A stretch of DNA of 64,000 nucleotides from Lachnospiraceae bacterium (GCA_017513125.1 JAFWDI010000006.1:1-64000), one strand, 5' to 3'. Positions 1 through 62,642 are shown, counted from the first letter of the stretch. A program made the numbers and translations. Notes: generated from the letters alone by a model not told the origin.

Positions 1-963
1 CTTCAGCAGGCCGGACTCATGAAATGCGAGTCCGCCGCTCAGATCCTTCCATGCCGCCCGGGGCGCGTCCGTGCCTTCCGCCGCAGCATTCCATTTCCCG
101 CAGAACAGATCCGCCATCTCCCCGGTGGTCAGGCAGTCGGCATCATCCGGGCCGATATTGTAATGCCCCGCCAGCGACGGGTCTTCCCACTGCCTCGCGC
201 AGATCAGCAGGTACGCGTACAGCGGATCCAGCACATGCTGGTACGGCCGCACCGAGTGCGGGTTCCGGACGGCGATCTCCTTCCCTGCGCAGACAGCGCG
301 GATGCAGTCCGGGATCAGGCGGTCCTTCGCGAAGTCTCCGCCGCCGATGACATTGCCCGCGCGGGCCGTCGAGACAGCGATCACGCGCGTCTCCCCCGTT
401 CCTGCCTCGGCCGCCTGCGCCGCCATGGCCTCCGGCGTGAAGAACGACCGCACATACGCCGCGGTCACGAGCTCGGAGCAGGACTTCGAGTTCGAGTAGG
501 GATCATAGCCGTCGAGCACCTCGTCCTCGCGGTAGCCCTCCTCGCGCTCGAGGTTCCGGTAGACCTTATCCGTCGTGACGTTCAGAAACGACCGCACGGA
601 CGGGCAATGCCGGACGCACTCGCAGACATTCACCGTGCCCATCACATTCGTCTCGTAGGTCAGGCGCGGCTCGCGGTAGGACTCGCGCACGAGCGGCTGC
701 GCGGCCATGTGAATCACGATCTCCGGCCGAAACTCCGTGAAGACCGCGGACAGATGCTCATAATCGCGCACGTCGCCGATCTCGTGGCGGATGCGCGCCG
801 CGTCCCCGGTCAATGCGAACAGGCTCGGATCCGTCGGCGGCTCGAGCGCGTATCCGCAGACTTCCGCTCCCGCGCCCAGCAGCATCCGGACGAGCCAGCT
901 GCCCTTAAAGCCGGTGTGGCCGGTGACCAAAACCCTTTTTCCGTGATAAAACGACAGATCCAT
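1..963 (-). CDS. rfbG: CDP-glucose 4,6-dehydratase, partial (3' end beyond window)
   Basis: The minus strand is open from an ATG at 963 to the window edge, giving 321 codons with no stop. The protein is an extended short-chain dehydrogenase. It starts with a Rossmann motif (VTGHTGFKG, about residues 14-22) and has the catalytic YxxxK as YSNSK. It converts CDP-glucose to CDP-4-keto-6-deoxyglucose, the step after RfbF and before RfbH, both of which lie nearby on the same strand. An AGGAGG ribosome site sits 7 bases before the start. It is separated from rfbH by a lipid kinase gene and by gtrA on the opposite strand, so it probably has its own promoter in 964-1060. The C-terminal end is not visible. 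Confidence 0.93.
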   Translation of the reverse strand, partial: MDLSFYHGKRVLVTGHTGFKGSWLVRMLLGAGAEVCGYALEPPTDPSLFALTGDAARIRHEIGDVRDYEHLSAVFTEFRPEIVIHMAAQPLVRESYREPRLTYETNVMGTVNVCECVRHCPSVRSFLNVTTDKVYRNLEREEGYREDEVLDGYDPYSNSKSCSELVTAAYVRSFFTPEAMAAQAAEAGTGETRVIAVSTARAGNVIGGGDFAKDRLIPDCIRAVCAGKEIAVRNPHSVRPYQHVLDPLYAYLLICARQWEDPSLAGHYNIGPDDADCLTTGEMADLFCGKWNAAAEGTDAPRAAWKDLSGGLAFHESGLLK

Positions 964-1557: not shown

Positions 1558-1581
1558 CGCGCGCCTCCGGGGCGTTTTTTT
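1558..1581 (+). terminator. Probable terminator of gtrA
   Basis: A short GC hairpin (CGCC/GGCG around 1562-1574) is followed by seven T residues. The stem is short, so this is a moderate call. Confidence 0.5.
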
Positions 1582-2543
1582 CATGCCATCCAGCGGATCC
1601 TGTGCTCCGCGAGCTTCACGTACAGTTTCTCCGTCTTCGCCGAGACCTCGCCGTCCGTGTGGAAATACTGCGGGTAAGCCGTGCGCACCATGACTTTTCT
1701 GCCGCGCAGGATGGTCGCGTACTTCCCTCCGACATGGCTCCCGTCGTAGCAGGTGTGAAACTCCTTCAGGAACGCGAGCCGTCCCAGGTCGTGGATCACG
1801 CAGACGTCCAGCAGGCCGTCCGTGCCGTCGGCGTCCGGTGTGAACTGGAAGCCGCCTCCCTCGTATTTATGGTTTCCGCAGACCGCGAAGCGCGCCCGCC
1901 GGAACGAGTGCGTCGTCGGCCGTCCCTCGTCCTGGACCGTGACGTCCAGCGGGAACAGCGGGAACCGCATCAAAAGCCGCAGCGCGGAGATGATGTAGTT
2001 CAGCCGTCCCAGCCTCAGCAGGTTCAGGGGTTTCTTCAGCCGGGTGTGATCCGTAAACCAGGCGCTGTGTGCGTCGAAGCCGATGCCGGCCGCGCTCAGG
2101 AACCGGCGGATCACTTCGTTTCCGTTCTCCGAGTCCCGGCAGCGGATCTCCCCGAGGTCGCGCATGACCGGCGCGCCGTCCGCGAGGATCTTCCGAGCGG
2201 CGTCCTGTTCGTCCTCGATTCCGATCGAGCGGGCGAAGTCATTGCCCGAACCCGTCGGGATGTACCCGAGGGTCACCTGCGTCAGATCGCGGATGCCGTT
2301 GATCACCTCGTTCAGCGAACCGTCGCCGCCCAGCACGATCAGCTGGATCGGCCCGTCCGCGGTCTCCGTGATGTGCCGGGCCGAGATCTCCATGTTCTCG
2401 CCGGCGGTCGACAGGATCACCCTGCATTCCACACCCGCCTGCGCGAACAGCGGTGCGACTTCTTCCCACACCTTTACGCTGTAGCCGGTGCGGCTCGCGG
2501 GATTGATCAATACATAAGTCGGGAGTTCCAGGTCAATGGCCAT
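1581..2543 (-). CDS. Diacylglycerol kinase-family lipid kinase (YegS/DgkB-like)
   Basis: At 320 residues this protein has the expected family length. The nucleotide-binding motif GGDGSLNEVING and the following PTGSGNDFAR are intact (about residues 72-110). A C-terminal beta-sandwich half follows, as in YegS and DgkB. The family phosphorylates diacylglycerol or related lipids with ATP. The start codon lies 2 bases after the stop of rfbH, so the two genes are probably translationally coupled. This places lipid phosphorylation within the glycan locus. Whether the substrate is diacylglycerol, as in glycolipid or lipoteichoic acid turnover, or another lipid carrier cannot be told from the sequence. 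Confidence 0.9.
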   Translation of the reverse strand: MAIDLELPTYVLINPASRTGYSVKVWEEVAPLFAQAGVECRVILSTAGENMEISARHITETADGPIQLIVLGGDGSLNEVINGIRDLTQVTLGYIPTGSGNDFARSIGIEDEQDAARKILADGAPVMRDLGEIRCRDSENGNEVIRRFLSAAGIGFDAHSAWFTDHTRLKKPLNLLRLGRLNYIISALRLLMRFPLFPLDVTVQDEGRPTTHSFRRARFAVCGNHKYEGGGFQFTPDADGTDGLLDVCVIHDLGRLAFLKEFHTCYDGSHVGGKYATILRGRKVMVRTAYPQYFHTDGEVSAKTEKLYVKLAEHRIRWMA

Positions 2544-2545
2544 CT

Positions 2546-3892
2546 TTACGCCTCCAGTGCTTCGATGATCACCTTCGCCATGTAGTCGATCTTCTCGTCC
2601 GTCATGCCCGGGTACACGCCGACCCAGAACGAGTCGCGCATGATCCGGTCCGTCACCTCGAGGCTGCCCGCGACGCGGAAGCCCTCGCCGGAAGCACGCA
2701 TCTCGTCGAAGCAGGGATGCTTGATGATGTTTCCGGAGAACAGCAGGCGCGTCTGCACGCCGTGCCCTTCGATGTAACGGACGACTTTCTCGCGGTCGAT
2801 ACCCTCCGCCACGGTCACGATGAAGCCGAACCAGCTCGGATCCGAGTTCGGCGCGGGCTCGGGCAGGACCAGCCGGTCCGCCGCGGGTTCGAGCGCCGCG
2901 CGGAGCCGCGCCCAGTTCGCCTTCCGGCGCTCCACGAACGCCGGGAACTTCGCGAGCTGCTCGCAGCCGACCGCCGCCTGCATGTCGGTGACTTTCAGGT
3001 TATAGCCGAAATGGCTGTACACATACTTATGATCGTAGCCCGCCGGGAGCTCGCCGTACTGTCCGTCGTAGCGGTGGCCGCAGAAGTTGTCATGGCCGGA
3101 CGGGCACACGCAGTCGCGGCCCCAGTCGCGGTAGCTCCTGATAAGCCGCGACAGCAGCGGGTCGTTCGTGTAGACGCAGCCGCCCTCGCCCATGGTTATA
3201 TGATGCGGCGGGTAAAAGCTCGACGTGCCGATATCGCCGACCGTGCCGGTCAGGCGCCGCTCGCCGCCGATCTCATAGACCGAACCCAGCGCGTCGCAGT
3301 TGTCCTCGACCAGCCACAGTCCGTGCGCATCGCAGAACGCCTTCACCGCGGCGAGATCGAAGGGATTTCCCAGCGTGTGCGCGAGCATGACCGCCTTCGT
3401 CCTCTCCGAGAGCGCGCCCTCGAGTTTCGTCACGTCGATGTTATACTGCGGGATCGTCACGTCCACGAAGACCGGGACGGCCCCGTACTGAATGATGGGA
3501 TTGATCGTCGTCGGGAAGCCCGCGGCCACGGTGATGACCTCGTCCCCGCGGCGGATCCGGCGGTCGCCCAGCTCGGGCGCGGTCAATGCCATGAACGCCA
3601 GCAGGTTCGCCGACGATCCGCTGTTCACCAGATGTGCGAACCGCACGCCCAGCCATGCCGCGAACTCCTTCTCGAAGCGGTCCGAGAACCGCCCGGTCGT
3701 CAGCCAGAAATCCAGCCCGGCCTCCACGAGCGCGCACATCTCCTTCTCATCGTAAACGCGTCCCGCGTAACCCAGGCGGTCGCCCGGCTCGAACGGCTTC
3801 TCCTGCTCGGGTCTCTTAAACTCTTTATAATACTCCGCGACCAGCGCCAGGATCTGCTCCCGGGCTTCGGCTTCGTTTTTCCACTGATTCAT
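2546..3892 (-). CDS. rfbH: CDP-4-keto-6-deoxyglucose 3-dehydrase (E1, RfbH)
   Basis: This 448-residue PLP enzyme of the DegT/RfbH family removes the C3 hydroxyl of CDP-4-keto-6-deoxyglucose on the way to 3,6-dideoxyhexoses. The usual PLP lysine is replaced by histidine in [13 protein letters not shown], the hallmark of E1 dehydrases. A CxCx7C cluster ([12 protein letters not shown]) and an upstream Cys in EDNCDALG match the four-cysteine [2Fe-2S] set of E1, which normally works with an E3 reductase. No E3 gene is seen in the window. The ATG at 3892 is preferred over the upstream in-frame codon at 3937, because the latter would run into rfbF, whose stop ends 5 bases upstream. Confidence 0.95.
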
Positions 3893-3897
3893 GTCGC

Positions 3898-4677
3898 TCA
3901 CTCCCAGATCTTCCAGGGCGCCTGGCCCTTCGACCACATCTTCTCGAGCATCTGCTTCTCGCGGACCGTGTCCATGCAGCGCCAGAAGCCCTTATGCTCG
4001 TATGCCATCAGCTGCCCGTCCGCCGCCGCGTTCTGCAGCGGATCCTTCTCGAGCACGGTCTCGTCGCCCTCGATGTAATTCAGGAACTCGGGTTCGCAGA
4101 CCATGAAGCCGATATTGATCACATCGCCTCCGTCCTTCGGCTTCTCGTCGAAGCTCGTGACGTGCCCGTCCTCCGCCAGCGAGATCACGCCGAAGCGCTG
4201 TCCCGCGGAGTAGGTGCTCATCGTGACCAGCCCGCCGTGGTTCCGGTGGAACTCGAGCAGCTCCGGGATATTGATATCCGCCACCCCGTCGCCGTAGGTC
4301 AGCATGAACGTCTCGCCGCCGATATAGTCCTTCACGCGCTTCACGCGGCCGCCGGTCATCGTGTCGAGCCCGGTGTCCACTACGGTCACTTTCCAGGGTT
4401 CAGCGTGATTCGAGTGGACGATCATCTCGTTCTTCCCGCCGGTGAAGTCATAAGTGATATCGGAGGTGTGCAGAAAATAATCCGCGAAATATTCCTTGAT
4501 CACGTGCTGCTTATATCCGGCGAGAATCACGAATTCATTAAACCCGTAATGCCCGTAGATCTTCATGATGTGCCAGAGGATGGGCATGCCGCCGAGCTCC
4601 ACCATGGGCTTCGGCTTAAAGATGCTCTCCTCGCTGATGCGTGTGCCGTAACCGCCGGCCAGGATCAGAACTTTCAT
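3898..4677 (-). CDS. rfbF: Glucose-1-phosphate cytidylyltransferase
   Basis: The 259-residue enzyme makes CDP-glucose from CTP and glucose-1-phosphate, the entry step to CDP-dideoxysugars. The nucleotidyltransferase signature is at the N-terminus ([15 protein letters not shown]) and is followed by [17 protein letters not shown] and [11 protein letters not shown] near the C-terminus are typical of RfbF. The gene lies directly upstream of rfbH, 5 bases apart. Glucose-1-phosphate can be supplied by the phosphoglucomutase at 19158-20864. Confidence 0.96.
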
Positions 4678-4696: not shown

Positions 4697-6553
4697 TCAG
4701 GCGCGCAGTATGTCGGACAATGCCTTCACCAGCCGGGCGTTATCCTCCCGGTTCCGGACTGCCAGCCGGACGAACTGTCCGGCGCCCGCCATCTTCGGCG
4801 TCAGGTCCTTTATAAGGATATCATATTCCGCGAGCAGGCGCTTCGTGATCTCGTGCGCGGTCTGCCCGTTTTTCAGCTCGCACATGACGTAGTTCGCCTG
4901 CGTCGGGTACACGGTCAGGCCGGGCAGTGCCGAAAGCTCCGCCAGGTACCGCTCCCGCTCCGCGCGGAACTCCGCGAGCGCCTCCTCGTAGAGCCCGTGG
5001 TGCTTTCCCTCGATCTGCAGAAAGTACTCCGCAAAGGAGTTGATGTTCCAGATCGCCACGTCTTTCTTCAGCGCCGCGATCAATGCCTCGTCGCGGGACG
5101 CCAGCACACCCAGCCGCAGGCCCGGAACGCCGTAGGACTTCGAGATCGACTTCACGGCGATCATGTGCGGATACGCCGCGAGGATCTTCTCATCGATCAG
5201 CGTCGGCTCCGGCTCGTCCGCGAAGTCCGCGAAAGACTCGTCGTACACGAAGCGGATCTCCCGTTCCTCACAGAACGCCGCGAGCCGGAGGACGTCCGCC
5301 TTCGGGATGTAGTTTCCGGAGGGATTGTCGGGATTGATCAGGACGAGGGCATCCGTGAAGCCGGCAGCACCGGCTTCCGCTCCGAGCCGCGCGCCAAAAA
5401 ACGCCGTGAGGTCGTCCGCGGTGTAGCGCAGGCCGGCATTGTCTGCAGCCGCACCCTGATCCGGGCGGAACACGACGGTCTTCTCCGGGTCATAGCGGTT
5501 CGGATACTCCTCAAAGGTCGGACGCACCACGCCGAGCCGGCCCGAAAAGCCTTCCATAAACGATTTGATCAGCTCTGCCGCGCCGTTTCCGACCAGGATG
5601 TGCTCCGGGCGCACCCCGAAGTTCTTCGCGGCGAGCAGGCTGTTCACCTTCATGCCGGAGGGATACTGCGTCAACAGCATCGGGAAGTTCGCCTGCAGCT
5701 CGTTCACGACCCGCGCATGCGGATAATAAGGGTTCACGAGATAGCAGAAATCGAGCAGCTTCGGGTAGCGCCAGTAGCCGCCGTAGCGCGCCATGATCCG
5801 CGAGAGGCGTCCCTCGTCGTCATCGAACATCGACTCCGCGATATCGAGGTCGGCCGCGTCGTCGATCTCGTACCAGCGCTCGCCCGAGAGGCGCTTCGCG
5901 CGGATCGAGCCGTCGCCCAGCAGCGCGATGACCTTCAGGACCTGCTCGTAATACTGGTTCATGCCCATCGTCTCGACGTATGCGCTCATGAAGGGCACGT
6001 AGCTCGTCTGCGAGAACTCGCGGCTGAACTTGTAGATGTTCACGGTCTTATAATAGCGGTCCGCCTTCGACCAGTCGAAATCGGCCTTCGAGACGAACGA
6101 GGTGATCTTATCCTCTTCGTCCAGTGTCACGCAGGTCCCGTCCATCCAGCTCTCGTAGGCGTCGACCAGCGCGAGCGAAGGGCGCGGATCGTCGAGGAGA
6201 TCGCGCAGGATCCGGTCCTCAAAGATGATGTCGGACTCGAGAAGCAGCGTGTCGTCCTCGATGAGCTGTTCCTTCGCGAGAAGGAGCGAATAAATATTGT
6301 TCGTGCGGTCGTAGATCGGGTTATTGACATAAATAACAGGTGTTATCAGATCCAGCGTGCCGATATGGTCGATCAGCTTCTGCCCTTCGTAGCCGACCAC
6401 GATCACGATGCGCGTGAGCCCGAGCGCGTCGAGCTGGCGCATGGTGCGGTCGATGAGCGGGGTGCCGCAGACGTCGACCATGCACTTCGTGTTGTTTTGG
6501 GTGAGTTCCTTCAGCCGTTTTCCCATGCCGGCTGCGAGGATAAGTCCCTGCAT
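4697..6553 (-). CDS. Fused nucleotidyltransferase / CobD-HisC-like PLP enzyme
   Basis: The 618-residue protein has two domains. Residues 1-245 form a LicC-like sugar/alcohol-phosphate nucleotidyltransferase (LILAAGMGKRL, then TKCMVDV). Residues about 260-618 form a fold-type-I PLP enzyme with INPDNPSGN, YDESFADF and the PLP lysine in SISKSYGVPGLRLG. The C-terminal half resembles threonine-phosphate decarboxylase CobD and histidinol-phosphate aminotransferase. I infer that it may make an amino-alcohol phosphate and activate it as a CDP derivative for the LicD protein at 8315-9148. The start at 6553 has a good AGGAG site; an upstream in-frame codon at 6598 has none. One copy of the ATAACA palindrome lies in this gene (6333-6346), written in rare codons. 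The exact substrate is unknown. Confidence 0.85.
   Translation of the reverse strand: MQGLILAAGMGKRLKELTQNNTKCMVDVCGTPLIDRTMRQLDALGLTRIVIVVGYEGQKLIDHIGTLDLITPVIYVNNPIYDRTNNIYSLLLAKEQLIEDDTLLLESDIIFEDRILRDLLDDPRPSLALVDAYESWMDGTCVTLDEEDKITSFVSKADFDWSKADRYYKTVNIYKFSREFSQTSYVPFMSAYVETMGMNQYYEQVLKVIALLGDGSIRAKRLSGERWYEIDDAADLDIAESMFDDDEGRLSRIMARYGGYWRYPKLLDFCYLVNPYYPHARVVNELQANFPMLLTQYPSGMKVNSLLAAKNFGVRPEHILVGNGAAELIKSFMEGFSGRLGVVRPTFEEYPNRYDPEKTVVFRPDQGAAADNAGLRYTADDLTAFFGARLGAEAGAAGFTDALVLINPDNPSGNYIPKADVLRLAAFCEEREIRFVYDESFADFADEPEPTLIDEKILAAYPHMIAVKSISKSYGVPGLRLGVLASRDEALIAALKKDVAIWNINSFAEYFLQIEGKHHGLYEEALAEFRAERERYLAELSALPGLTVYPTQANYVMCELKNGQTAHEITKRLLAEYDILIKDLTPKMAGAGQFVRLAVRNREDNARLVKALSDILRA
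6333..6346. repeat. Palindrome ATAACA-GG-TGTTAT, copy 1
   Basis: A perfect 6+2+6 inverted repeat inside the fused nucleotidyltransferase gene. It encodes Ile-Thr-Pro-Val-Ile with AT-rich codons that are rare here. The wider context CATAAATAACAG is shared with copy 2. Confidence 0.7.
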
Positions 6554-6832
6554 ATCGCTCTCCTTTGCAATATTTCTTCGCACAATATCCCGGAGCACCG
6601 CATCAGGCTCGCAGACCCGTCGTCTCCTTGCCGCGGCTCCGTCACCTGTTTCCGCACCGCTCCCGCAAACTCGCTCGCTCCGTATAAACCACAGGCCAAT
6701 GTTCGGAGCTCGCTCATACAGTGCTCCGCGGCGCGGGCTATACTCGCCGCGGCTTAACGTCGACTTCCGATGGTCTGCTCCGCCTGAATACGGCGCATCA
6801 CCATCATTGTCCGGAAAATCTCCGCAGGGAGA

Positions 6833-8314: not shown

Positions 8315-9148
8315 TCAGTCTTTCGCGTACAGCCGGTAGTCGTGCTGCGGGTGCCGGTCCTTCTCCGGGGGCAATGCCATGTAATTCCCGTAATAGGTCT
8401 TCAGTACATCGTCCCAGTCCGCGGGTACCGAGAATTCCCGGCCCGCGAATGGAAGGCGCGCGGTCTCTTCGAACCACTCCCTGCGGTAGCGGACCACGCG
8501 GTCATCCCAAGCGACGACGCCCACGTAAGCGTCGTCGGGGGAAAACTCCTCCTCGATGATGTCGCGGAAATCCCGGTCGATCCTGCGGCAGTACTTCTTT
8601 CCGCCCTTAAACAGCTTCACATACAGCCAGCACAGATATTTCACCGGCTTCCGCCAGAGCTTCGTCTTCGCGCCGGGCTTCATCCAGGAACCGTAGACCT
8701 GGTTCATGGCATTGATCTTCCAAAAGACCTTCGCCGCGCGCTTCTCTTCCTCCGGCCCTTCCCCGCCGAAAGCGTCCAGCGGGTAGATATCGATGAACGC
8801 GCCGCCGTCATAGCCCAGCTCGTACTCGTTCGTGTTCTCGAACACATAGGAGGGATCGACGACGCGGTAGATTCCGTAGATATAGCGGTCGGTGTCCGCG
8901 CGGGTGCAGAGCTTCAGCTTTCCCTCGTACTTTTTCTTAAAATACCGGCGGAGCTTTTCGTAGTCCGCGCGCGGCATCATGATGTCCAGATCGTCGTCCC
9001 ACGGGATGAAGCCCTGATGGCGGACCGCGCCGATCAGCGTCCCGTAGGCCAGATAATAGGTCAGGTGCTGCTTCGCACAGATCCGGTCGATCTCGTCGAG
9101 AATCGCCAGCGACGCCTGCTGGATCTCTTCCAGTTTCAGTTCTCTCAT
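8315..9148 (-). CDS. LicD-family phosphotransferase
   Basis: This 277-residue protein carries the LicD core: YLAYGTLIGAVRHQGFIPWD followed by DDLDIMMPRADY near residues 32-63. LicD enzymes move phosphocholine or related phospho-alcohols from a CDP donor onto glycans, or act as nucleotidyltransferase-fold glycan modifiers. The fused enzyme at 4697-6553 on the same strand could supply such a CDP donor. No choline transporter or kinase is seen in the window, so a donor other than CDP-choline seems more likely. That is inference. Confidence 0.9.
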   Translation of the reverse strand: MRELKLEEIQQASLAILDEIDRICAKQHLTYYLAYGTLIGAVRHQGFIPWDDDLDIMMPRADYEKLRRYFKKKYEGKLKLCTRADTDRYIYGIYRVVDPSYVFENTNEYELGYDGGAFIDIYPLDAFGGEGPEEEKRAAKVFWKINAMNQVYGSWMKPGAKTKLWRKPVKYLCWLYVKLFKGGKKYCRRIDRDFRDIIEEEFSPDDAYVGVVAWDDRVVRYRREWFEETARLPFAGREFSVPADWDDVLKTYYGNYMALPPEKDRHPQHDYRLYAKD

Positions 9149-10049: not shown

Positions 10050-11116
10050 TGATCGAAAAACACGAAACGCCGCACCTGATAGTACACGCGCAGCACCGGG
10101 CCGAGCACGCCGAGCCGCTCGAAGCGCGCGCACCAGCGCAGGATCTTCGCCGCATACCCGCGGGCAATGCTCCGCTCCGACCGCAGGTTCGGGTTCCGCA
10201 GGTAGTTCGGGAACGCCGCGCGCATCGACGCGCGCATGCTCCGATAGACCGCCATGCGCTGCGCGGGCCGGACCGAGAGGTTCGCCATCAGCAGGTCGCC
10301 GTAGTAGATCTTCATGAGCTCAAGCTCGATCTCCTGCGCCTCCGTGCCCGTGACGGTCCCGCGCTTTCCGCGGGCGGACACGCGGTCTGCGGTCTCGCGG
10401 AACGTCCGGCAGTTGCGGCCGAAACGTTCGGTGATCTGCGGCACCTCCAGGACTTTCTTCCGGCGGCCTTCGGACTGATCGTTCACGAACCAGCGGTAGA
10501 CCGGCTTCCGCACGAAGGCCACGCGCTTCGAATGCTCGTGGAACTGCAGGTTAAAGACCGCGTCCTCGGGCATCTGCGTGAAGCGCAGCCCGTACCGTTC
10601 GATGATCTTTCTCCGGTACAGCGAACCGTGCAGCAGACTCACCATCCACTTCGAAGGCGTCCGCGAAAAGTCCTGGACCTGGATCACACGCCCCTGCGCG
10701 TCCACGTCCTGCACATATCCGACCACGCAGTCCGCGTTCGAAGCCTGCGCCGCGCCGCTCAGGATCGAGAGCGCCTCCGGGGCCAGCTCGTCGTCCGAGT
10801 CGCAGAACAGGATGTACTTTCCGCGCGCGTGATCGATCAGCCGCGACTTGTTCTCGAGGATCCCGCGGTTCTCCGGGTTCGCGAAGATGCGGATGCGCAT
10901 GTCGCGGTTCTCCGCGGCGAACTGCGCGGCCCGCGCCACGGAATCGTCGGTCGAAGCGTCGTCCGAGATCACGACCTCAAAATCCGCGTCGTCCTTCTGA
11001 TCCCTCAGGACCTCGAGCGCGCGGATCAGGTAGTCCGCGTAATTATAGGACGAGATGCAGACGCTGATCAGCGGCTCGCCCGGGCCCCAGGCCCCGTTTC
11101 CGGCCGGCGCGCTCAT
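10046..11116 (-). CDS. Glycosyltransferase family 2
   Basis: The 356-residue protein has an N-terminal GT-A domain. It opens with LISVCISSYNYADYLIRALE, then VVISDDASTDDS, and carries the metal-binding DSDD motif (ILFCDSDDELAPEA, about residue 103). The C-terminal part is basic and ends in a short hydrophobic stretch that may sit at the membrane. It probably adds one sugar of the repeat unit. Its start overlaps the stop of the GtrB-like gene by ATGA. The specific sugar cannot be predicted. Confidence 0.9.
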   Translation of the reverse strand: MSAPAGNGAWGPGEPLISVCISSYNYADYLIRALEVLRDQKDDADFEVVISDDASTDDSVARAAQFAAENRDMRIRIFANPENRGILENKSRLIDHARGKYILFCDSDDELAPEALSILSGAAQASNADCVVGYVQDVDAQGRVIQVQDFSRTPSKWMVSLLHGSLYRRKIIERYGLRFTQMPEDAVFNLQFHEHSKRVAFVRKPVYRWFVNDQSEGRRKKVLEVPQITERFGRNCRTFRETADRVSARGKRGTVTGTEAQEIELELMKIYYGDLLMANLSVRPAQRMAVYRSMRASMRAAFPNYLRNPNLRSERSIARGYAAKILRWCARFERLGVLGPVLRVYYQVRRFVFFDQ

Positions 11117-12165
11117 GCGCCGTCACCGCTTTTCGGCGCCGCGGGCTCTCCCGAAGGGAAGGTTTCCACCGGGGAAGACATGACCGCCGTGGCGGCCGAC
11201 GCCTCAGGAACCGGAGTCCGGTCCTGTGCGGGTCCGAAATTCAGCCGTTCCTCCTCAATCACGAGCGGCCGGTTCATCACGCGCTGGTTAATGTTCAGCA
11301 CATACTCGCCCATCAGCCCGATGAAGCACAGCTGCACCGCGCCCAGGAAGAACATGCCGATGACGATCGGGGCCATGCCGGCATTGAAGCTGTACCAGTG
11401 CGTCAGCTTCATGACCAGGTAGAAGATCGCGATGCCCAGGCTTGCGAGTCCCAGCAGGAAGCCCACCATCGTCGCCAGGCGCAGGCCCACTTTCGTATAG
11501 CTCGTGACCGACAGCATCGTCGCGTCATAGAGCGTGTAGAAATTATTATGCGTCTTTCCCGCGCGCCGCTGCGGCTGCTCGTAGGGCACCTCGCAGCGCT
11601 TATATCCGAACTCCGCGACGACGCCGCGCATGAACGGGATCGGGTCGTGCAGGTCGCGTAGGATGTTCACGAAATCGCGGTCATACAGGCCGAAACCGGT
11701 GAACTGCTCGATCATCTCGACGTCGGACATCTTCCGGATCATCTTGTAATAGATCCCGCGCAGCGCGTAGATGAACGGATTTTCCTTCGAAGAGGTCTTG
11801 ATCGCGGAGACGATCTTATAGCCCTCCTCCCACTTCGCGACGAAAGTCGGAATCAGCTCGACCGGATCCTGGAAGTCGCAGCACATCGAGACCGTGCAGT
11901 CGCCGTCGGTCTGGCAGATGCCGTGGTAGGGAGAATTGAACTGTCCGAAGTTCCGCGCGTTGAAGATGGCCTTGATCCGCCGGTCTTCCGCGCACATCTG
12001 CCGCAGGTAGACGCGCGTCCTGTCCGTCGAGCAGTTGTCGATGAACAGGATATCGTAGTCGTACTGCGGAAGATCCCGCGCGAACATTTCCTTCAGCGCC
12101 TGCGCGATCTCTCGGACGTTCTCCTCTTCGTTATAGCAGGGTATCAGCACACTGATCTTTTTCAT
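11113..12165 (-). CDS. GtrB/DPM-like polyprenyl-phosphate glycosyltransferase
   Basis: The 350-residue protein has a family 2 glycosyltransferase domain (ISVLIPCYNEEENVREI, then FIDNCSTDRT) and two C-terminal membrane helices (about residues 225-252 and 262-288). This layout is typical of GtrB and ArnC enzymes, which transfer a sugar to undecaprenyl phosphate. The GtrA-family gene at 1061 would be its natural partner. The ATG at 12165 is chosen; the longer frame starts with TTG at 12198 and adds only a charged dipeptide-rich stretch. The tail after the last helix is Pro/Ala rich. Confidence 0.9.
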   Translation of the reverse strand: MKKISVLIPCYNEEENVREIAQALKEMFARDLPQYDYDILFIDNCSTDRTRVYLRQMCAEDRRIKAIFNARNFGQFNSPYHGICQTDGDCTVSMCCDFQDPVELIPTFVAKWEEGYKIVSAIKTSSKENPFIYALRGIYYKMIRKMSDVEMIEQFTGFGLYDRDFVNILRDLHDPIPFMRGVVAEFGYKRCEVPYEQPQRRAGKTHNNFYTLYDATMLSVTSYTKVGLRLATMVGFLLGLASLGIAIFYLVMKLTHWYSFNAGMAPIVIGMFFLGAVQLCFIGLMGEYVLNINQRVMNRPLVIEEERLNFGPAQDRTPVPEASAATAVMSSPVETFPSGEPAAPKSGDGA

Positions 12166-12201
12166 GATGCTTCTCTTTTCTTCCGCCCTGTCGGGCAATG
12201 C

Positions 12202-13218
12202 TTACAGCGGTAACGATCCTTCCGCTGACGCCGGCGCCTGCAGCGGATGTTCCGCACACCAGCGCACGGTCTTTCGGATGCCTTCCTCCGGCGCGGTGCC
12301 GAAGCCTTCTCCCCGGACGAGTCCGAGGTCTCTCTCGATGGCGGATACGTCCGCCTTCAGGTACATGACCTGCTTCTCCGCGTAGGGCCGGGCGCCGAGC
12401 CGCGGCTCCGTCATCCGTCCGGTCACCTCGGCCGCAGCCGCCGCGATCATGCGGATGTAATCCGCGAGCGGTCTGGCCTCGCCGCTGCCGACGGGATAGA
12501 TCTGTCCGTCCCTGCCGGACTCCGCGAGCCGGAACAGGATCTCCGCCGCGTCCTCCGCGAACAGGTAATCCCACTGCTGCTCCCCGGCGGTGAAGTCCGG
12601 GGAAACGCCCGCCAGAAAGCTTCTGGCCGCGCTCATGACCATCGACTGTTCGCCGTCATACGGCCCGTAGACGCTCAGGATCCGGGGCCAGATGTGGCGG
12701 ATCCCCAGCTCTTCGCAGCGCTTTCTCGTCATCTGGCCGGCCGCCAGTTTCGCCATACCGTAGCCGTTCTCCGGGAAGCAGGGCGTCTCCGGGGTCAATG
12801 CCCCTTCCACGCGCCCGTACTCCGCCTGCGAGCCCGCGCCGATGAATGTGTGGCACTCGAGTCCGGACGCAGCCCGCACCGCGGTCATCGTGCGGGCAAT
12901 GTTCTGCGCCTGGAGGTCCATGTCATTGCGCGACGGACCGCTGGTCCCCGCCCAGGCGAAGTGATAAAATACGTCGCCCGTGATGAACTCGCCCGAAGCC
13001 ATGTCGTTCTCGCCCGCCAGCTTCAGCAGGTCCGGGAGCACTTCATACTCCTCCATCGAACAGTATACCCGAACCAGGCGCTCATGCTCCGGCAGCCGGT
13101 CATTCCGCGCCGAGTCCTGGTGCAGGACCGCGAACACGCGGTCGCCGTTCTCCAGATATTTTCGTACCAGGGTCATGCCGACCGCGCCGGTGACTCCGGT
13201 GATGATGATGTTTTTCAT
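12202..13218 (-). CDS. NAD-dependent NDP-sugar epimerase/reductase (RfbJ/YerF-like)
   Basis: The 338-residue protein is an extended SDR with the Rossmann motif TGVTGAVGM at residues 7-15 and catalytic YGMAK. Other landmarks are HFAWAGTSG, FIGAGSQAEYG and WPRILSVYGPYDG. Family members epimerise or reduce 4-keto NDP-sugars, for example CDP-abequose synthase. Next to the thiamine-diphosphate enzyme at 13266 and near rfbF/rfbH, it is a good candidate for reducing the keto group of a branched CDP-dideoxyhexose. The exact product is inferred only from context. Confidence 0.82.
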   Translation of the reverse strand: MKNIIITGVTGAVGMTLVRKYLENGDRVFAVLHQDSARNDRLPEHERLVRVYCSMEEYEVLPDLLKLAGENDMASGEFITGDVFYHFAWAGTSGPSRNDMDLQAQNIARTMTAVRAASGLECHTFIGAGSQAEYGRVEGALTPETPCFPENGYGMAKLAAGQMTRKRCEELGIRHIWPRILSVYGPYDGEQSMVMSAARSFLAGVSPDFTAGEQQWDYLFAEDAAEILFRLAESGRDGQIYPVGSGEARPLADYIRMIAAAAAEVTGRMTEPRLGARPYAEKQVMYLKADVSAIERDLGLVRGEGFGTAPEEGIRKTVRWCAEHPLQAPASAEGSLPL

Positions 13219-13265
13219 GTCATTGTCCCGCGCGTCCGTCCGCGCCCCTTCAGAGATCCGGCGGA

Positions 13266-15191
13266 TCAGTCCTTCGGAAAGCGAATTGCTTCAAACTCCT
13301 CCCTCGGAAGGAAAGGCGCCATGTCATCGAGCGACGGCGACACGATCCGCCCGTCGGGCAGGACCTTCGAGGACGATTTCGGCTGGAAATTCCGCTCCGG
13401 GTCCACGACCGCCTCGATGATGCAGGGCCCCTCGCCGTTCAGCGCCTCCTCGAGCACCGGCCCGCAGTTCGCCTCGGTATCCAGCCGGAAGTATCCCACG
13501 CCGAACGCCTGTGCGAGGATCCGGAAATCCGGGAAGCTCACGCCGCTCGACGGGTCAATGCCGATAAACGGCGGCTGAAACAGGTTCCGCTGGGTCTGGC
13601 GTATCGAATGATAGCCGTTATTGTTCAGCAGGATGATCTTAATATTCAGGCGGTTCTGCGCCACAGTGGCGAGTTCCTGCAGGTTCATCATGAAGCTGCC
13701 GTCACCGTCGATGCAGACGATGCGCTTCGAAGACGCCGCACGGCTCCCATCGGACGAGGCCGCGGCATATGCCCGATCCGCGACCGCGGCACCGACCGCG
13801 GCCGGGAAGCCGTAGCCCATGGCCGCACAGCCGGAGTTCGTGAACATCCGCTGGCCCTGCTTCACACGCAGAGCCTGGAACGTGATCACGCAGGCGCTGC
13901 CGTTTCCACAGATGATCCGGTCATCCGTGCGCAGATGATCCGACAGCATATCCATGAAAATGTACGGGTCGATCGTGCCGCCCTCCGGCTTTCGGTACGC
14001 GGGATCCGCCGCGGGATAGCGCGTGACCAGATCCTTACACCACGCCAGCCAGTCTCTGTGATCCCCCGCAGGGAAGCACTCCAGTCCGGTGCATCCCTGC
14101 GCGACGCGGCGGGCCGCCGCCCGGAGCAGCGCGCCGATAAAGTCCTTTACGTCCGCCCACACCGGCATATCCGGCCGGATCGTGGGTTTCTTCAGCTCCT
14201 TCGGGTCGATATCCACGATGATCTTCTCCGCATTCTTCGCGAAGTCGAAATGATTATAGCCGATCATCCGGATATTCAGCCGGCAGCCCAGAGAGACCAG
14301 CAGGTCGCAGTTCTGGACCGCGAAGTTCCCGGGCCGCGTACCCACGGTGCCGGGCATTCCCGCGAAGCAGGGATGGTCCGCCGCCACGGTATCATTCGCA
14401 TTCCAGGCTGTGACCACCGGAATCTTCAGCACGTCCAGCAGCTTCAGCAGCTCCTCTTCGGCACCGCCCAGCCGAATGCCCGTGCCTGCCAGCAGCAGAG
14501 GCGCCTTCGCCTGACGGATCTTCGCGAGGACCGCGTCCGCGGTCTCGTCCGACACGGCGGGAACCTCCCCGAACTCAGCCAGCAGGTCCTCGTCTCCCAG
14601 CGAGCGCGCCCCGGCGATCTCCTCTTCCGGATCGAAATGGATCAGTTCTTCCGTCTCGATCTTCGCGCCCTGCACGTCCAGCGGAACGTCGATCCATACC
14701 GGCCCCGGCCGCCCGTGCAGCGCCAGATACCACGCCTTCTCGATCTCATAGGCCGTCCGCGCCGGATCCTGCAGCCGGACCGCGTACTTCGTCATGTTCG
14801 AGACCGACGGGACGATATCGAACTCCTGATCGCCCAGCTGGCGCAGACCCAGTTCGGGGCAGGCGTGAATCGTCGTCTCGCGCTTCACCTGGCCCGAGAC
14901 CACGAACATCGGGATCGAGTCCAGATAAGCGCCCATAACGCCGGTGATCGCGTTCGTGCCGCCGGGGCCCGAAGTCACGCACAGCGCCGCGATCCGCCCG
15001 GTCAGGCGCGCATAGCCTTCCGCGGCAATCGAACTCGCCTGCTCGTGATGATTAAATACGCAGTGCAGACCTTCCTGATGGCCCAGCGCGTCGTTCAGAT
15101 GCATGGCGCCGCCGCCCGTGACCAGGAAGCAGTCCGTCACGCCCTGCTTTACCAGAAAATCCGAGATGTATCCCGCAACTTTAATTTCCAT
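13266..15191 (-). CDS. Thiamine-diphosphate enzyme, acetolactate-synthase-like (YerE-like candidate)
   Basis: The 641-residue protein has all three domains of the acetolactate synthase family. The N-terminal pyrimidine domain carries the catalytic Glu in NHHEQASS and TSGPGGTNAITG. The central domain begins near residue 215. The C-terminal domain has the ThDP/Mg motif CIDGDGSFMMN followed by NNNGYHS. A Ser/Ala-rich insertion precedes the GDG motif. In an rfbF-rfbG-rfbH locus, such a homologue recalls YerE, which adds a two-carbon unit from pyruvate to a CDP-4-keto-3,6-dideoxyhexose. No regulatory small subunit or other branched-chain amino acid gene is nearby, which argues against a role in valine/isoleucine synthesis. 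Confidence 0.85.
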   Translation of the reverse strand: MEIKVAGYISDFLVKQGVTDCFLVTGGGAMHLNDALGHQEGLHCVFNHHEQASSIAAEGYARLTGRIAALCVTSGPGGTNAITGVMGAYLDSIPMFVVSGQVKRETTIHACPELGLRQLGDQEFDIVPSVSNMTKYAVRLQDPARTAYEIEKAWYLALHGRPGPVWIDVPLDVQGAKIETEELIHFDPEEEIAGARSLGDEDLLAEFGEVPAVSDETADAVLAKIRQAKAPLLLAGTGIRLGGAEEELLKLLDVLKIPVVTAWNANDTVAADHPCFAGMPGTVGTRPGNFAVQNCDLLVSLGCRLNIRMIGYNHFDFAKNAEKIIVDIDPKELKKPTIRPDMPVWADVKDFIGALLRAAARRVAQGCTGLECFPAGDHRDWLAWCKDLVTRYPAADPAYRKPEGGTIDPYIFMDMLSDHLRTDDRIICGNGSACVITFQALRVKQGQRMFTNSGCAAMGYGFPAAVGAAVADRAYAAASSDGSRAASSKRIVCIDGDGSFMMNLQELATVAQNRLNIKIILLNNNGYHSIRQTQRNLFQPPFIGIDPSSGVSFPDFRILAQAFGVGYFRLDTEANCGPVLEEALNGEGPCIIEAVVDPERNFQPKSSSKVLPDGRIVSPSLDDMAPFLPREEFEAIRFPKD

Positions 15192-15230
15192 GTTCGCTTC
15201 CTTTATCTTTTCGCAATGCTGCGTTCTGTC

Positions 15231-15887
15231 TCACATACTCAGCAGAAGCTTCCTCAGTTCCTCCGTGCTTTCCGCACACGCCGCGGCCCCTTCGGCCAGG
15301 GCCTCTTCCCGGCTCTTAAAGCCGTACCCATACGTCAGCCCCAGGAAGTCCGCGCCGGCGATCCGCGCTCCGTTCGAGTCGCTGACCGAATCGCCCACCA
15401 TAAGCGTACGCAGCAGCGGCACTCCGCACTCTTCCGCACACATGACGATCAGGTCCGGCTTCTTCAGAACACCCGCGTCGTCCGGTCCGTGGATCACGTC
15501 GAAAAGCGGCGCGAGCCCGAAATGCTCCAGCATCTTCTTCGCATAGTCTTCACGTTTATTCGTGCCGACCGCGGTCTTCGCGCCGGCTGCCCGCACCGCC
15601 CGCAACACGTCGAAGATCCCCTCGTACGGCTCCGCGATCAGGCATCCTTCCGACGCGTAATATTTCCGAAAGACCCGCGTCATCTCCTGCGCGGCCCCGG
15701 TCGTAAGGCCGAACTCCTCCTGAAAACTCTTCTGAATGGGCGGGCCGATCCAGTTCAGCATCCGCTCCCACGGAGGCGCTTCATAGCCCAGTTCTTCGAT
15801 CGCCTTTACCGCCGAGCCGAGCACGCCGTCTTCGGTCTTCATCAATGTTCCGTCCAGATCGAAAACGATCAGATCATACTTTTTCAT
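15231..15887 (-). CDS. HAD-superfamily phosphatase (Gph-like)
   Basis: The 218-residue protein has the HAD motif I VFDLDGTL at residues 7-14, a small helical cap, Lys in GTNKRED and motif IV VGDSVSDSNGA. It resembles phosphoglycolate phosphatase and pyrophosphatase PpaX. It sits between the aldolase gene (10 bases upstream) and the thiamine enzyme, so it may remove a phosphate from an intermediate or donor of the unusual sugar pathway. A general house-cleaning phosphatase cannot be excluded. Confidence 0.87.
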   Translation of the reverse strand: MKKYDLIVFDLDGTLMKTEDGVLGSAVKAIEELGYEAPPWERMLNWIGPPIQKSFQEEFGLTTGAAQEMTRVFRKYYASEGCLIAEPYEGIFDVLRAVRAAGAKTAVGTNKREDYAKKMLEHFGLAPLFDVIHGPDDAGVLKKPDLIVMCAEECGVPLLRTLMVGDSVSDSNGARIAGADFLGLTYGYGFKSREEALAEGAAACAESTEELRKLLLSM

Positions 15888-15896
15888 GTCCGCTCC

Positions 15897-17489
15897 TCAT
15901 GCCTCATACCTTGATGTCGTCACGAACTCCGCTGCGAACTCATCCTTCATCTCATCCAGGAACGCCCGCATCCGGGCGTTCAGCCCGTCCGCCTTCGCTT
16001 TCACGAAATCGTACTCCCGCTCGGCATTGTAATAATTCGACTCCTCCGCGCTGTAACCGTCGAAGCCGGCGAACGCCGCGCCCTTAACTCCCAGCCCGGC
16101 CAGCGCCTTGATCAGCATGATCAGCGAGTTATCGATAAACTCGGCTTCCGCGTCCATCAATGAACTGAAATTCAGCACGTACTCGAACGCGCCCTCCGCA
16201 GTCGGCGTCACGTTCGATGTCGCGATGATCCGGTGCCCGCCCTCGAGCAGCCGCGTCGCGAGCTGCACATAGCGCTTCGAATTCGAGAGGAAGATATAGT
16301 CCGTGTCCCAGGCCTCCGGAATCATGTTGATCGAAATGACCGTCGGCCGCTCCGCAGCGATGTACGCGTCGACACGCTCCTTCTCGGTGCGGATGCTCGT
16401 GCCCGGTCCGAGGACCAGGATCTTCCGCCCGGAAAGCGCCGCGCGGAGCCGCTCTCTGTCGGCCTCGTCATTGATATCGTTCGTCTGATAATCCTTATAG
16501 AGCTCCTCGATGTAAGCCTTATCGAAGAGCAGTTTCTTCTCTCCCTGCAGGCGCTTCAGCAGCCCGTCGATCTGCCGGACCGAGAGCGTGCGCTTCTCCA
16601 TCAGGAAGGAGACGTAGTTCGGGTGGCAGTCGTTCGACGCCGCCAGATAATAAAACAGGTTATATCCCCAGGTCGCCGGGCGGTAAAACTTCGTGATGTT
16701 CGCGTCGATCGCCTCCATAAGCTGACTGATGTCGTAGCGCTTCCCGAGCCGCTCGTTCATATACATCGCGATCAGTTCGATCGGGGCATTGCCCGCGCTC
16801 TTCCCCATGCCGTAGATGGAGCCGTCCACCAGGAGGTCCCGCTCCGTGTCGTAGGAAAGCATCGTGATGCAGTTCGCATAGCCCATCTGGAAATTATTAT
16901 GACCGTGGTATCCGAGGGCAATGCCCGGATCCAGGTTCCGGTCCAGAATGTCGATCAGGTGCTGCAGGTTATTCTGGTGCATCAGCCCGTAGGTGTCGAC
17001 CATCGAGACCGCGTAGGGCTTCACCTCGTTCGCGAGGCGCACCAGGTCGAGCATCTCCTCGTCGGAGTAGCTCGTCACCGAGACCAGCTGCGCGAAGACT
17101 TTATAGCCCAGCGCCTTCAGCTGCGCGCAGAACGCCAGCGCCGGCTCTCGCAGATGCTTCTTAAAGATCACGCGGATGCCGTCGAGGAAGCATTCGCCGC
17201 AGGGACGGATGTTTTCGATCGCGCAGGTTCCGTAATCGATCATGCCCACGACCAGCGTGCGCTTCCGGTCCAGTCCCCCGTAGATGCGCTCCATATCGTC
17301 CGAATGCGGCATGATGCTGCGGTCCGGGTCGAACGGCCGGCGGTCGTCCAGAAAGCCGACCTCGATAAAATCCACGCCCGCGTCGACCACGCGCTCGAAC
17401 ACGCTGACGAGGTCATCGTGCCCGAATCTCCAGTCATTCACATATCCGCCGTCCCTGAGCGTGCAGTCCAGTAGCAGTTTTTTCCCCAT
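15897..17489 (-). CDS. DRE-TIM aldolase with C-terminal Rossmann-like domain
   Basis: The 530-residue protein begins with LLLDCTLRDGGYVND, the DRE-TIM metallolyase signature found in HMG-CoA lyase and 4-hydroxy-2-oxovalerate aldolase. HGHNNFQMGYAN (about residue 205) supplies the metal-binding histidines. Residues about 345-530 form a second alpha/beta domain (KILVLGPGTSI) that I do not recognise with certainty; it is reminiscent of MptE/DUF115-type domains. The start at 17489 follows GGAGAAG; an upstream frame to 17537 lacks support. Linked to the thiamine enzyme and phosphatase, it may make or rework a 2-oxo acid or aldehyde used in branched-sugar synthesis. The reaction is unknown. Confidence 0.82.
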   Translation of the reverse strand: MGKKLLLDCTLRDGGYVNDWRFGHDDLVSVFERVVDAGVDFIEVGFLDDRRPFDPDRSIMPHSDDMERIYGGLDRKRTLVVGMIDYGTCAIENIRPCGECFLDGIRVIFKKHLREPALAFCAQLKALGYKVFAQLVSVTSYSDEEMLDLVRLANEVKPYAVSMVDTYGLMHQNNLQHLIDILDRNLDPGIALGYHGHNNFQMGYANCITMLSYDTERDLLVDGSIYGMGKSAGNAPIELIAMYMNERLGKRYDISQLMEAIDANITKFYRPATWGYNLFYYLAASNDCHPNYVSFLMEKRTLSVRQIDGLLKRLQGEKKLLFDKAYIEELYKDYQTNDINDEADRERLRAALSGRKILVLGPGTSIRTEKERVDAYIAAERPTVISINMIPEAWDTDYIFLSNSKRYVQLATRLLEGGHRIIATSNVTPTAEGAFEYVLNFSSLMDAEAEFIDNSLIMLIKALAGLGVKGAAFAGFDGYSAEESNYYNAEREYDFVKAKADGLNARMRAFLDEMKDEFAAEFVTTSRYEA

Positions 17490-19157: not shown

Positions 19158-20864
19158 TTACAGGCTGCGGATCAGCTCCGCCGTCTTCGCGGTAAGATCC
19201 TTCGACTCCGCCTCCGCCGCGGCGCGCTCGGGCGCGGTCACGGACAGGTAGATCTTGATCTTCGGTTCGGTGCCGGACGGACGCACGATGATCGTGCCGC
19301 CGTCGAAGAAATACCGCACCACGTCCGCGGTCGGAAGCCCGTCCACGCCCTCGGCGTAGTCCAGATACTTCACGATCTTCTTTCCGGCGATCTCATCGCG
19401 GATCCCGCGGAAGGACTCCATGATCTGCTGCATCTTCCGGAAGCCGCTCGCGCCCTCGAACTCGTAGGATGCCACGGAATTGATCCGATAGCCGAACGTG
19501 CGGTAGAGCTCGTCGAGCTTCCCGATCAGGCTGATGCCCTGCGTTTTATAATATGCGAACATCTCGCAGATCAGGAACGCACCGTCGACCGCGTCCTTAT
19601 CCCGGACGTACCCGCCCGAGAGATAGCCGTAGCTCTCCTCGAAGCCGAACACGTAGTCGTCCGCGCGGCCTGCCTCTTCGAGGCTCTTTATCGTCTCGCC
19701 GATGTACTTGAAGCCGGTCAGGACCTCGGCGCAGGTGAGCCCGTAGCTCTCCGCGATCTGCGCCGCCATATCCGTCGTAACGATGCTCTTCACGGCCACT
19801 CCGTTCGCGGGCAGCGTCCCGTTCTTCTTCCGCATCGCGCAGATGTAGTCGAGCATGAGCATGCCCGCTTCATTGCCCGTAATGAGAACGAACTCTCCGT
19901 CCGCGTCCTTCACGGCCATGCCGATGCGGTCCGCGTCGGGGTCCGTCGCGAAGAACAGATCCGCGTCGGCCTTCTTCGCGTATTCGATGCCCAGCTGCAT
20001 CGCCTGCAGGATCTCGGGGTTCGGGTAAGGGCAGGTCGGGAAGTCCCCGTCAGGCTGCTCCTGCTCCTTCACGACCGTGATGTTCGTGTAGCCGCACTCC
20101 TTCAGGACGCGCATGACGGGCACGAGGCCGGTGCCGTTTAAAGGCGAGTAGACGATCGAGACGTTCCGGTCGATCGCGTCGTCCGGACCCAGCACGCTCT
20201 GCGCCTTCACGCAGGCAATGAACGCGTCGTCGACTTCCGGGCCGATTTCGCGGATCAGGCCGTCCGCCACGCCCTTCTCCCAGGCGCTCCCGTCGACGAG
20301 ATCCTTCACGTCGTCGAGCACGTCGAGTTTTCCGATCTCGGCGGAGATCTCATCCGCGGCTTCCGAAGTGATCTGGCAGCCGTCGTCATTGTACGCCTTA
20401 TAGCCGTTATACTTCGCCGGGTTGTGCGACGCGGTCATCATGATGCCGGCCGCGCAGTGCAGATACCGCACCGCGAACGACAGGCAGGGCGTCGGCATGA
20501 TCTCCCGGTACATGTGGACCGTGATCCCGCTCGCGGCGAGGACCCCGGCGGCCACCTGACAGAACAGAAGGCCCTTATGGCGCGAATCGCGGCTGATGGC
20601 CACGGCGCGCTTCCCTTCCGGATAATGTTTCAGCACGTAGTTCGCGAGACCCTGCGAGGCTTTCGCGACCGTGTAGACGTTCATGCGGTTCGTGCCCGCG
20701 CCGATCACGCCGCGCAGGCCCGCGGTCCCGAAGGCCAGATCCTTAAAAAACGCGTCCTCGATCTGCTCCTCGTCCATGGCCGCCAGTTCCGCGGTCAGGT
20801 CCGCGTCGGCCAGAGGCTGCGCGCTCCAGCGCTCATATTCTTTTTTGATCTCTTCGCTCAGCAT
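19158..20864 (-). CDS. Phosphoglucomutase / phosphomannomutase
   Basis: The 568-residue protein is of the alpha-D-phosphohexomutase family, PgcA type. The phosphoserine loop is TASHNPAKYNGYK (near residue 145), the metal loop is DPDADRIGM, and the sugar-binding loop is GFEESYGY. The C-terminal phosphate-binding motif is RPSGTEPKIK. It interconverts glucose-6-phosphate and glucose-1-phosphate, which feeds RfbF at the other end of this locus. A strong GAGGGG site lies 6 bases before the ATG, and a promoter with a perfect TATAAT box is seen upstream. Confidence 0.95.
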   Translation of the reverse strand: MLSEEIKKEYERWSAQPLADADLTAELAAMDEEQIEDAFFKDLAFGTAGLRGVIGAGTNRMNVYTVAKASQGLANYVLKHYPEGKRAVAISRDSRHKGLLFCQVAAGVLAASGITVHMYREIMPTPCLSFAVRYLHCAAGIMMTASHNPAKYNGYKAYNDDGCQITSEAADEISAEIGKLDVLDDVKDLVDGSAWEKGVADGLIREIGPEVDDAFIACVKAQSVLGPDDAIDRNVSIVYSPLNGTGLVPVMRVLKECGYTNITVVKEQEQPDGDFPTCPYPNPEILQAMQLGIEYAKKADADLFFATDPDADRIGMAVKDADGEFVLITGNEAGMLMLDYICAMRKKNGTLPANGVAVKSIVTTDMAAQIAESYGLTCAEVLTGFKYIGETIKSLEEAGRADDYVFGFEESYGYLSGGYVRDKDAVDGAFLICEMFAYYKTQGISLIGKLDELYRTFGYRINSVASYEFEGASGFRKMQQIMESFRGIRDEIAGKKIVKYLDYAEGVDGLPTADVVRYFFDGGTIIVRPSGTEPKIKIYLSVTAPERAAAEAESKDLTAKTAELIRSL

Positions 20865-58633: not shown

Positions 58634-58654
58634 GAGGGACCTCCGTTCGATTTT

Positions 58655-59515: not shown

Positions 59516-59530
59516 ATCCGTTCTCTACAG

Positions 59531-60535: not shown

Positions 60536-60550
60536 ATTATCCCTCCTTGT

Positions 60551-60581
60551 AAAAAATGATGGATCAATAACGTTCCATCAT
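60551..60581 (-). promoter_or_regulatory. Terminator-like hairpin in the leader of the island cassette
   Basis: The minus strand reads ATGATGGA, a 10-base loop, TCCATCAT, then six T, immediately before the ribosome site of the gene starting at 60535. It is placed like an attenuator between promoter and gene. A 13-codon frame (ATG at 60605) ends with TGA inside the loop. Confidence 0.5.
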
Positions 60582-60614
60582 CTTTCCTTTTACGACAAGC
60601 GGCATTTCATCATC

Positions 60615-60620
60615 ATTATA
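60615..60620 (-). promoter_or_regulatory. Predicted -10 element of the island cassette
   Basis: A perfect TATAAT on the minus strand lies 80 bases before the first cassette gene. No good -35 box is found at the right distance (TATGCA is the nearest), so the promoter may need an activator. Confidence 0.45.
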
Positions 60621-60732
60621 GCCCACTTCCCAAACTATGCATACATTTAGGACAGGCATACACTCGTTCCACGCTCCGTAGGTAGCCGCCCCGCCCCGCA
60701 TGTGATAGTCTGGGAACAGAAGGAGGCAAAAC

Positions 60733-61317: not shown

Positions 61318-61335
61318 CGCCGGGTCGGAAGGTAT

Positions 61336-61366: not shown

Positions 61367-61413
61367 ATTTATCTTCTCTTCCGAGGCGCAGATGTCAAAA
61401 CGCTCTGCCCGAA

Positions 61414-62616: not shown

Positions 62617-62642
62617 CCTGACGATCATATCATCCGTCCCGA

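Follow-up and report, generated by a model that had tools for sequence, protein, structure and literature searches.

Organisation of the locus

The window, i.e. the whole stretch of 64,000 nucleotides that was analysed, belongs to a draft genome (2.23 Mb, 36 contigs) of a Lachnospiraceae bacterium. Its minus strand carries a series of four genes with gaps of 9, 39 and 47 bp. These encode, in this order, a two-domain aldolase of DRE-TIM (HMGL-like) type that belongs to an RDGGY subgroup (15897..17489, 530 aa; PF00682, E 2e-22), a HAD phosphatase of a phosphoglycolate-phosphatase-like subfamily with a DLDGT motif (15231..15887, 218 aa; HAD_2, PF13419, E 3e-29), a YerE-like ThDP enzyme predicted to be a C-branching lyase (13266..15191, 641 aa; TPP_enzyme N, M and C domains) and an extended SDR with GxxGxxG and YxxxK motifs (12202..13218, 338 aa; Epimerase, PF01370, E 8e-28). 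A GT2 glycosyltransferase gene that is co-conserved with this module follows (11113..12198, minus strand; PF00535, E 1e-20). Further downstream on the same strand are genes encoding RfbF, a glucose-1-phosphate cytidylyltransferase (3898..4677; TIGR02623, 370 bits, cut-off 300), RfbH, a CDP-6-deoxy-4-hexulose 3-dehydrase (2546..3937; NF011936, 700 bits, cut-off 423), and RfbG, a CDP-glucose 4,6-dehydratase (1..963; TIGR02622, 360 bits, cut-off 278). All three thus exceed curated NCBIfam cut-offs. The rfbG gene is incomplete because the window begins at base 1 of the contig. The four ORFs are at the positions given by the sequence-only reading, and both the Pfam domains and the Rfb cut-offs agree with its gene list.

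The rfbH gene is the sole full-length copy in the genome. No E3 reductase partner of RfbH was recognised among the operon genes or elsewhere in the window; three NAD-binding oxidoreductases are encoded elsewhere in the genome. A phosphohexomutase (19158..20864, minus strand; PF02878-PF02880 and PF00408) is, from its domains, a possible source of Glc-1-P for RfbF.

Several other genes were observed around the rfb genes. A GtrA-type membrane protein (1061-1528, plus strand) and a YegS-like, diacylglycerol-kinase-like lipid kinase (1581-2543, minus strand) are encoded between rfbG and rfbH. The gene at 4697-6598 (minus strand) encodes a protein in which a LicC-like cytidylyltransferase (1jyk) is joined to a threonine-phosphate-decarboxylase-like PLP domain (6oux). 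From its sequence, this protein may make CDP-ethanolamine or CDP-aminopropanol on its own; its identification as PntC (phosphonate) was rejected, its aminotransferase half resembling threonine-phosphate-decarboxylase-like enzymes. A LicD transferase is encoded nearby (8315-9148). Since LicD is found in only 4 of the 80 module loci described below, the region of the fusion and LicD is a local decoration. At the other end of the window (58001-64000), the G+C content drops from about 0.64 to about 0.55, and this part is possibly a foreign stretch.

The ThDP enzyme is related to YerE-like enzymes

The sequence of the ThDP enzyme sets it apart from biosynthetic acetolactate synthases. Its weak likeness to this family (325 bits against TIGR00118) is the one point in favour of an acetolactate synthase brought here by chance neighbourhood. 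However, this score is far below the cut-off of 538, which two further genes in this genome exceed (665 and 647 bits). Furthermore, in a maximum-likelihood tree of 49 rows, the IlvB proteins form a single clade (100/100) that leaves out the ThDP enzyme of the module. Because of this score and this placement, we rejected the IlvB identity, whose probability we regard as negligible. The ThDP enzymes of the modules constitute a clade of their own (100/99), which joins JanthE with the same support (100/99), JanthE being the only characterised YerE-like member of the tree and lying on a long branch. The assignment to the YerE type rather than to IlvB, made earlier by the sequence-only reading, is therefore borne out; a firm grouping with IlvB, which that reading had named as evidence against itself, was not seen.

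Among 149 matched PDB sequences, the closest to the ThDP enzyme is 8rph (385 bits), which is the YerE-like enzyme JanthE from Janthinobacterium (PMC12188165); the next one is an AHAS (210 bits). The tryptophan of the AHAS motif VRQWQ is replaced by a threonine both in JanthE and in the enzymes of the module. At the AHAS arginine position, most module members have an arginine, three have a tyrosine and JanthE has a proline. JanthE differs from the module enzymes by a CDG motif where they have GDG, and its identity to them does not exceed 39% in the tree alignment. The ThDP gene of the window is located in the same operon region as the CDP-4-keto-3,6-dideoxyhexose genes (those of RfbF, RfbH and RfbG).

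A two-domain aldolase found in two genetic settings

The barrel of the aldolase (residues 6-260) corresponds to an HMGL-like domain (PF00682, 80 bits, cut-off 29), which on sequence grounds places the protein in the DRE-TIM / HMGL-like superfamily. Its nearest named families are 4-hydroxy-2-oxovalerate aldolases, all of which score below their cut-offs (78.8 bits against the equivalog TIGR03217, cut-off 286). Structures related to the barrel are 3dxi, which is uncharacterised, and 1nvm. The AF2 model of the aldolase has a pLDDT of 88.7. With the 4-hydroxy-2-oxovalerate aldolases DmpG and MhpE, the protein shares the HMGL-like barrel, the Asp and the two His of the metal site and a GMGxxAGNAPxE motif. 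It differs from them by RDGGY in place of RDGxH, by an added C-terminal domain and by its sub-cut-off scores. R12, D13, H195 and H197 are invariant in the 52 aldolases aligned, as is Tyr16, which aligns with the catalytic His21 of DmpG. Since this tyrosine stands in place of the catalytic histidine, pyruvate aldol chemistry is not assured.

The C-terminal domain (residues about 338-530; 15897..16478, minus strand) matches no Pfam family, and Foldseek gave no match below 1e-3. Its AF2 model has a pLDDT of 93. VIA-align Z scores were 11.1 for CstI, 11.0 for CstII, 10.8 for an MptE-type HPPK, 10.7 for Maf and 10.5 for SteA, with a sharp fall to 3.8 beyond the CstII/Maf/MptE fold group. According to this model, the domain has a Rossmann fold like that of the CstII sialyltransferase, Maf and MptE, i.e. 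the GT42/Maf glycosyltransferase fold. The description of this domain as unknown thus holds for its Pfam family but no longer for its fold. Near-invariant positions among the 52 sequences are GPG, N388, N403, N426, D453-N454 and GFDG. No conserved histidine was found in the domain, no column having more than 10 His among these 52 sequences; CstII requires a catalytic histidine. Taken with the modelled fold, the domain is probably a nucleotide-binding relative of enzymes that handle CMP-ulosonates and not a working sialyltransferase.

Two variants of the protein were also observed. An aldolase encoded on the plus strand of locus L022 (5009-6520) has a normal barrel and a shortened, divergent C-terminal domain, which suggests that this domain may be dispensable or degraded. 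In locus L028 (6466-9666, minus strand), a 1066-aa protein combines an aldolase domain of the same family with a GT2 domain, and its gene adjoins a ThDP gene and that of RfbH.

The two-domain aldolases from the family and class samples of the window are found in two settings: about 12 of 25 have a ThDP gene as a neighbour, about 12 have a gene for a KdsB/PseF-type cytidylyltransferase, and 1 has neither. The loci of the second type often include a HAD or KdsC-type phosphatase. For instance, KdsB exceeds its cut-off in locus L025 (158 bits, cut-off 155), a protein of locus L026 scores above the cut-off for the KdsC family (131 bits, cut-off 107) and a Leisingera plasmid shows the order aldolase-KdsB-HAD, its KdsB passing via a subfamily model. 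On the aldolase tree, there were at least three switches between the ThDP and the CMP settings. Since more distant copies of the aldolase lie beside CMP-ulosonate genes, the enzyme probably forms a 3-deoxy-2-ulosonic acid phosphate, from which, by the same guilt by association, the phosphatase would then free the acid.

Recurrence of the module in other genomes

GTDB genomes were scanned with an alignment of six aldolases, which yielded at least 578 related stretches. The best 80 were examined, and the presence of genes in these loci was scored by tblastn. They belong to members of the Lachnospiraceae and other Clostridia, of the Selenomonadales and of the Bacteroidales, to Fibrobacter and to a Flexilinea, and the module is common in gut and rumen Clostridia. 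Among these 80 loci, 76 have a ThDP gene, 59 an SDR, 52 a HAD and 46 a GT2 gene, while RfbF, RfbG and RfbH are found in 41, 38 and 41 of them, respectively. In the 53 loci longer than 20 kb, the ThDP gene is almost constant (51/53) and at least one Rfb gene lies within 10 kb in 40 cases. The recurring order is rfbF-rfbG-rfbH-aldolase-HAD-ThDP-SDR-GT2, the aldolase and ThDP genes being mostly adjacent or separated by the HAD gene alone. Since a ThDP gene accompanies 76 of the 80 closest aldolases, the grouping of these genes is not due to chance. The sequence-only reading had suggested looking for aldolase, HAD and ThDP genes together at other rfbFGH loci, and this search was strongly positive.

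As an informal control, we looked at RfbH loci on six plasmids from bacteria that are not related, namely Azospirillum, Qipengyuania, Sphingomonas, Methylovirgula, Sulfitobacter and Salmonella; none has an annotated aldolase-ThDP pair. Therefore, RfbFGH alone does not bring the aldolase and the ThDP enzyme along. Two genomes of the class (L160 and L161) carry near-identical operons that encode the aldolase, a weaker relative of the ThDP enzyme, a classical SDR and proteins of 239-246 aa and 470 aa.

An AroB-related gene is present in the module of 10 of the 80 loci, mostly with a classical SDR, and 9 of these 10 have no HAD gene. The two AroB-related proteins tested match TIGR04425 ("AroB-related putative sugar phosphate phospholyase"; 438 and 433 bits, cut-off 400) and are below the AroB cut-off. 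The substrate of AroB is a seven-carbon 3-deoxy-2-ulosonate 7-phosphate; the AroB-like protein would be a further enzyme of phosphorylated 2-oxo-3-deoxy acids, so these neighbours fit a donor derived from a sugar phosphate, possibly from erythrose 4-phosphate. An exchange between HAD and AroB-like genes was discarded as a statistical law: the Fisher test gives p 2e-4 when loci are treated as independent and is not significant on independent pairs. Eighteen of the 80 loci, 6 of them shorter stretches, have no HAD, AroB-like or transketolase gene.

Split transketolase genes were found in locus L082. They also occur on a Desulfobaculum plasmid (L144), with genes for RfbH and an aldolase of the same family, and on a Methylovirgula plasmid (L171); on both plasmids, they come after rfb genes. 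A transketolase-based branching pathway possibly acts on the same acceptor in L144 and L171.

Proposed function and alternative explanations

The gene identities, the synteny, the ThDP phylogeny, the two aldolase settings and the C-terminal fold are established here; we infer every reaction described below. Our main reading, to which we give a probability of about 60%, is that the locus encodes a cassette for C-branching of a CDP-3,6-dideoxyhexose, with a long polyhydroxylated, acyl-derived branch coming from a donor made by the aldolase and the phosphatase. RfbF, RfbG and RfbH, together with an E3 reductase, would produce CDP-4-keto-3,6-dideoxyglucose. The aldolase would join pyruvate to an aldehyde that most likely bears a phosphate, giving a 4-hydroxy-2-oxo acid phosphate (a 3-deoxy-2-ulosonic acid of the Kdo/DAHP kind), from which the HAD enzyme would strip the phosphate. 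The YerE-like ThDP enzyme would then decarboxylate this long keto acid and add the acyl anion to the C4 ketone of CDP-4-keto-3,6-dideoxyglucose, and the SDR would reduce the new branch ketone, i.e. play the role of YerF. The predicted product is a 4-C-(1,3,...-polyhydroxyalkyl)-3,6-dideoxyhexose, like erwiniose or caryophyllose, and the GT2 encoded at 11113..12198 would probably transfer it. Our best guess for the aldehyde, although a doubtful one, is erythrose 4-phosphate, which would give a six-carbon branch. Several observations weigh against the main reading: Tyr16 at the catalytic position of the aldolase, the 18 of 80 loci in which neither a HAD nor an AroB-like nor a transketolase gene was seen, the 13 of 53 long loci devoid of Rfb genes within 10 kb, the alternation of HAD and AroB-like genes losing its significance once relatedness is allowed for, and the E3 reductase that was not recognised in the operon.

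The sequence-only reading had taken the additional enzymes as a sign of a donor other than pyruvate and hence of a longer or different branch. This suggestion gains independent support from the CMP-ulosonate synthetases and KdsC-type phosphatases that neighbour the aldolase in other loci and, by analogy, from YerE-like enzymes that use 4-hydroxy-2-oxo acids (PMC12247030). More tentatively, at somewhat less than even odds, we propose that an ulosonic-acid machine, made of the phosphatase and an aldolase with a domain like that of CMP-sialic acid transferases, feeds the YerE-like enzyme in a widespread and undescribed pathway. A 3-deoxy-2-ulosonic acid would thus be decarboxylated and grafted on a CDP-4-keto-3,6-dideoxyhexose, and different branches would arise where a split transketolase or an AroB-like phospholyase takes the place of the HAD enzyme.

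The ThDP enzyme might instead use pyruvate and add a two-carbon branch as in yersiniose, the aldolase and the HAD phosphatase making a separate ulosonic acid in the same operon. YerE itself prefers pyruvate (PMC12247030) and the aldolase does serve ulosonic-acid pathways elsewhere. However, none of the genes recognised in the operon of the window encodes a cytidylyltransferase of the KdsB/NeuA kind, the ThDP and CMP settings are alternatives, and the aldolase gene is accompanied by the ThDP gene in 76 of 80 loci, mostly side by side or with the HAD gene alone between them. This explanation thus seems unlikely to us. We give just as little credit to another one, in which the product of the aldolase, HAD and ThDP enzymes is an acyloin or a deoxyketose that remains separate from the RfbFGH sugar, so that the 3,6-dideoxyhexose bears no branch. 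It would account for the 13 of 53 long loci in which no Rfb gene was recognised within 10 kb and for the short aldolase-ThDP pairs found with other sugar genes (L029 and L163). Against it, RfbFGH genes adjoin the module in many loci. Moreover, a separate oxidoreductase/epimerase gene adjoins the rfb genes at the RfbH plasmid loci devoid of the module, whereas the only SDR recognised in the operon of the window, besides RfbG, is that of the module.

Finally, the aldolase could work in the direction of cleavage and provide the ThDP enzyme with pyruvate or an aldehyde, as its DmpG-type relatives are catabolic enzymes that cleave 4-hydroxy-2-oxovalerate. A special supply of pyruvate would not be needed, however, and homologues of the aldolase lie by CMP-ulosonate synthetases, which consume a condensation product; we consider this direction very improbable.

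Comparison with known systems

The C-branching pathway of YerE type and long branches such as those of erwiniose and caryophyllose are already known. By comparison, the module that supplies the donor by means of an aldolase and a phosphatase, the occurrence of this aldolase in CMP-ulosonate loci as well, the CstII/Maf-like domain fused to it and the breadth of the module in gut Clostridia appear to be undescribed in the literature searched, which included few subscription journals. In that literature, nothing was found on an aldolase combined with acetolactate synthase and O-antigen, or on TIGR04425.

The route to CDP-yersiniose in Yersinia pseudotuberculosis has the same RfbFGH-type acceptor, a YerE-like ThDP enzyme and a reductase step. 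It differs from the module by the absence of the extra aldolase and phosphatase, YerE taking pyruvate to make a two-carbon branch. The formation of erwiniose in Pectobacterium atrosepticum is closer to our main reading: ErwE is a YerE-like enzyme acting on the same acceptor, whose preferred donors are 4-hydroxy-2-oxo acids and for which pyruvate is not a donor (PMC12247030). The origin of this donor is not stated in that review. Caryophyllose, a 3,6-dideoxy-4-C-[1,3,4,5-tetrahydroxyhexyl]-hexose (PMC5706390), involves the YerE-like enzyme MMAR_2332 in Mycobacterium marinum. Its six-carbon branch has hydroxyls at 1' and 3' and a CH2 at 2', and a pyruvate aldolase route would lead to this same 1',3'-dihydroxy-2'-deoxy pattern; unlike the predicted branch, that of caryophyllose ends in CH3. 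Its donor source is likewise not stated in the literature searched. Hence, the module offers a testable answer to the supply of donors for long C-branched sugars, which that literature leaves unexplained. It also leads one to expect C10-C12 sugars at the cell surface of commensals and provides a set of ThDP enzymes likely to accept functionalised keto acids, which is of interest for biocatalysis.

With the pathways of Kdo and other CMP-ulosonates (KdsB, KdsC), the proposed pathway would share a phosphatase acting after the formation of a C-C bond, and the same aldolase family is found by KdsB/KdsC-like genes elsewhere. In contrast to these pathways, the ulosonic acid would here be decarboxylated into a branch and not activated by CMP. 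One aldolase family would thus link CMP-ulosonates and C-branched CDP-sugars, two types of pathways that are usually kept apart.
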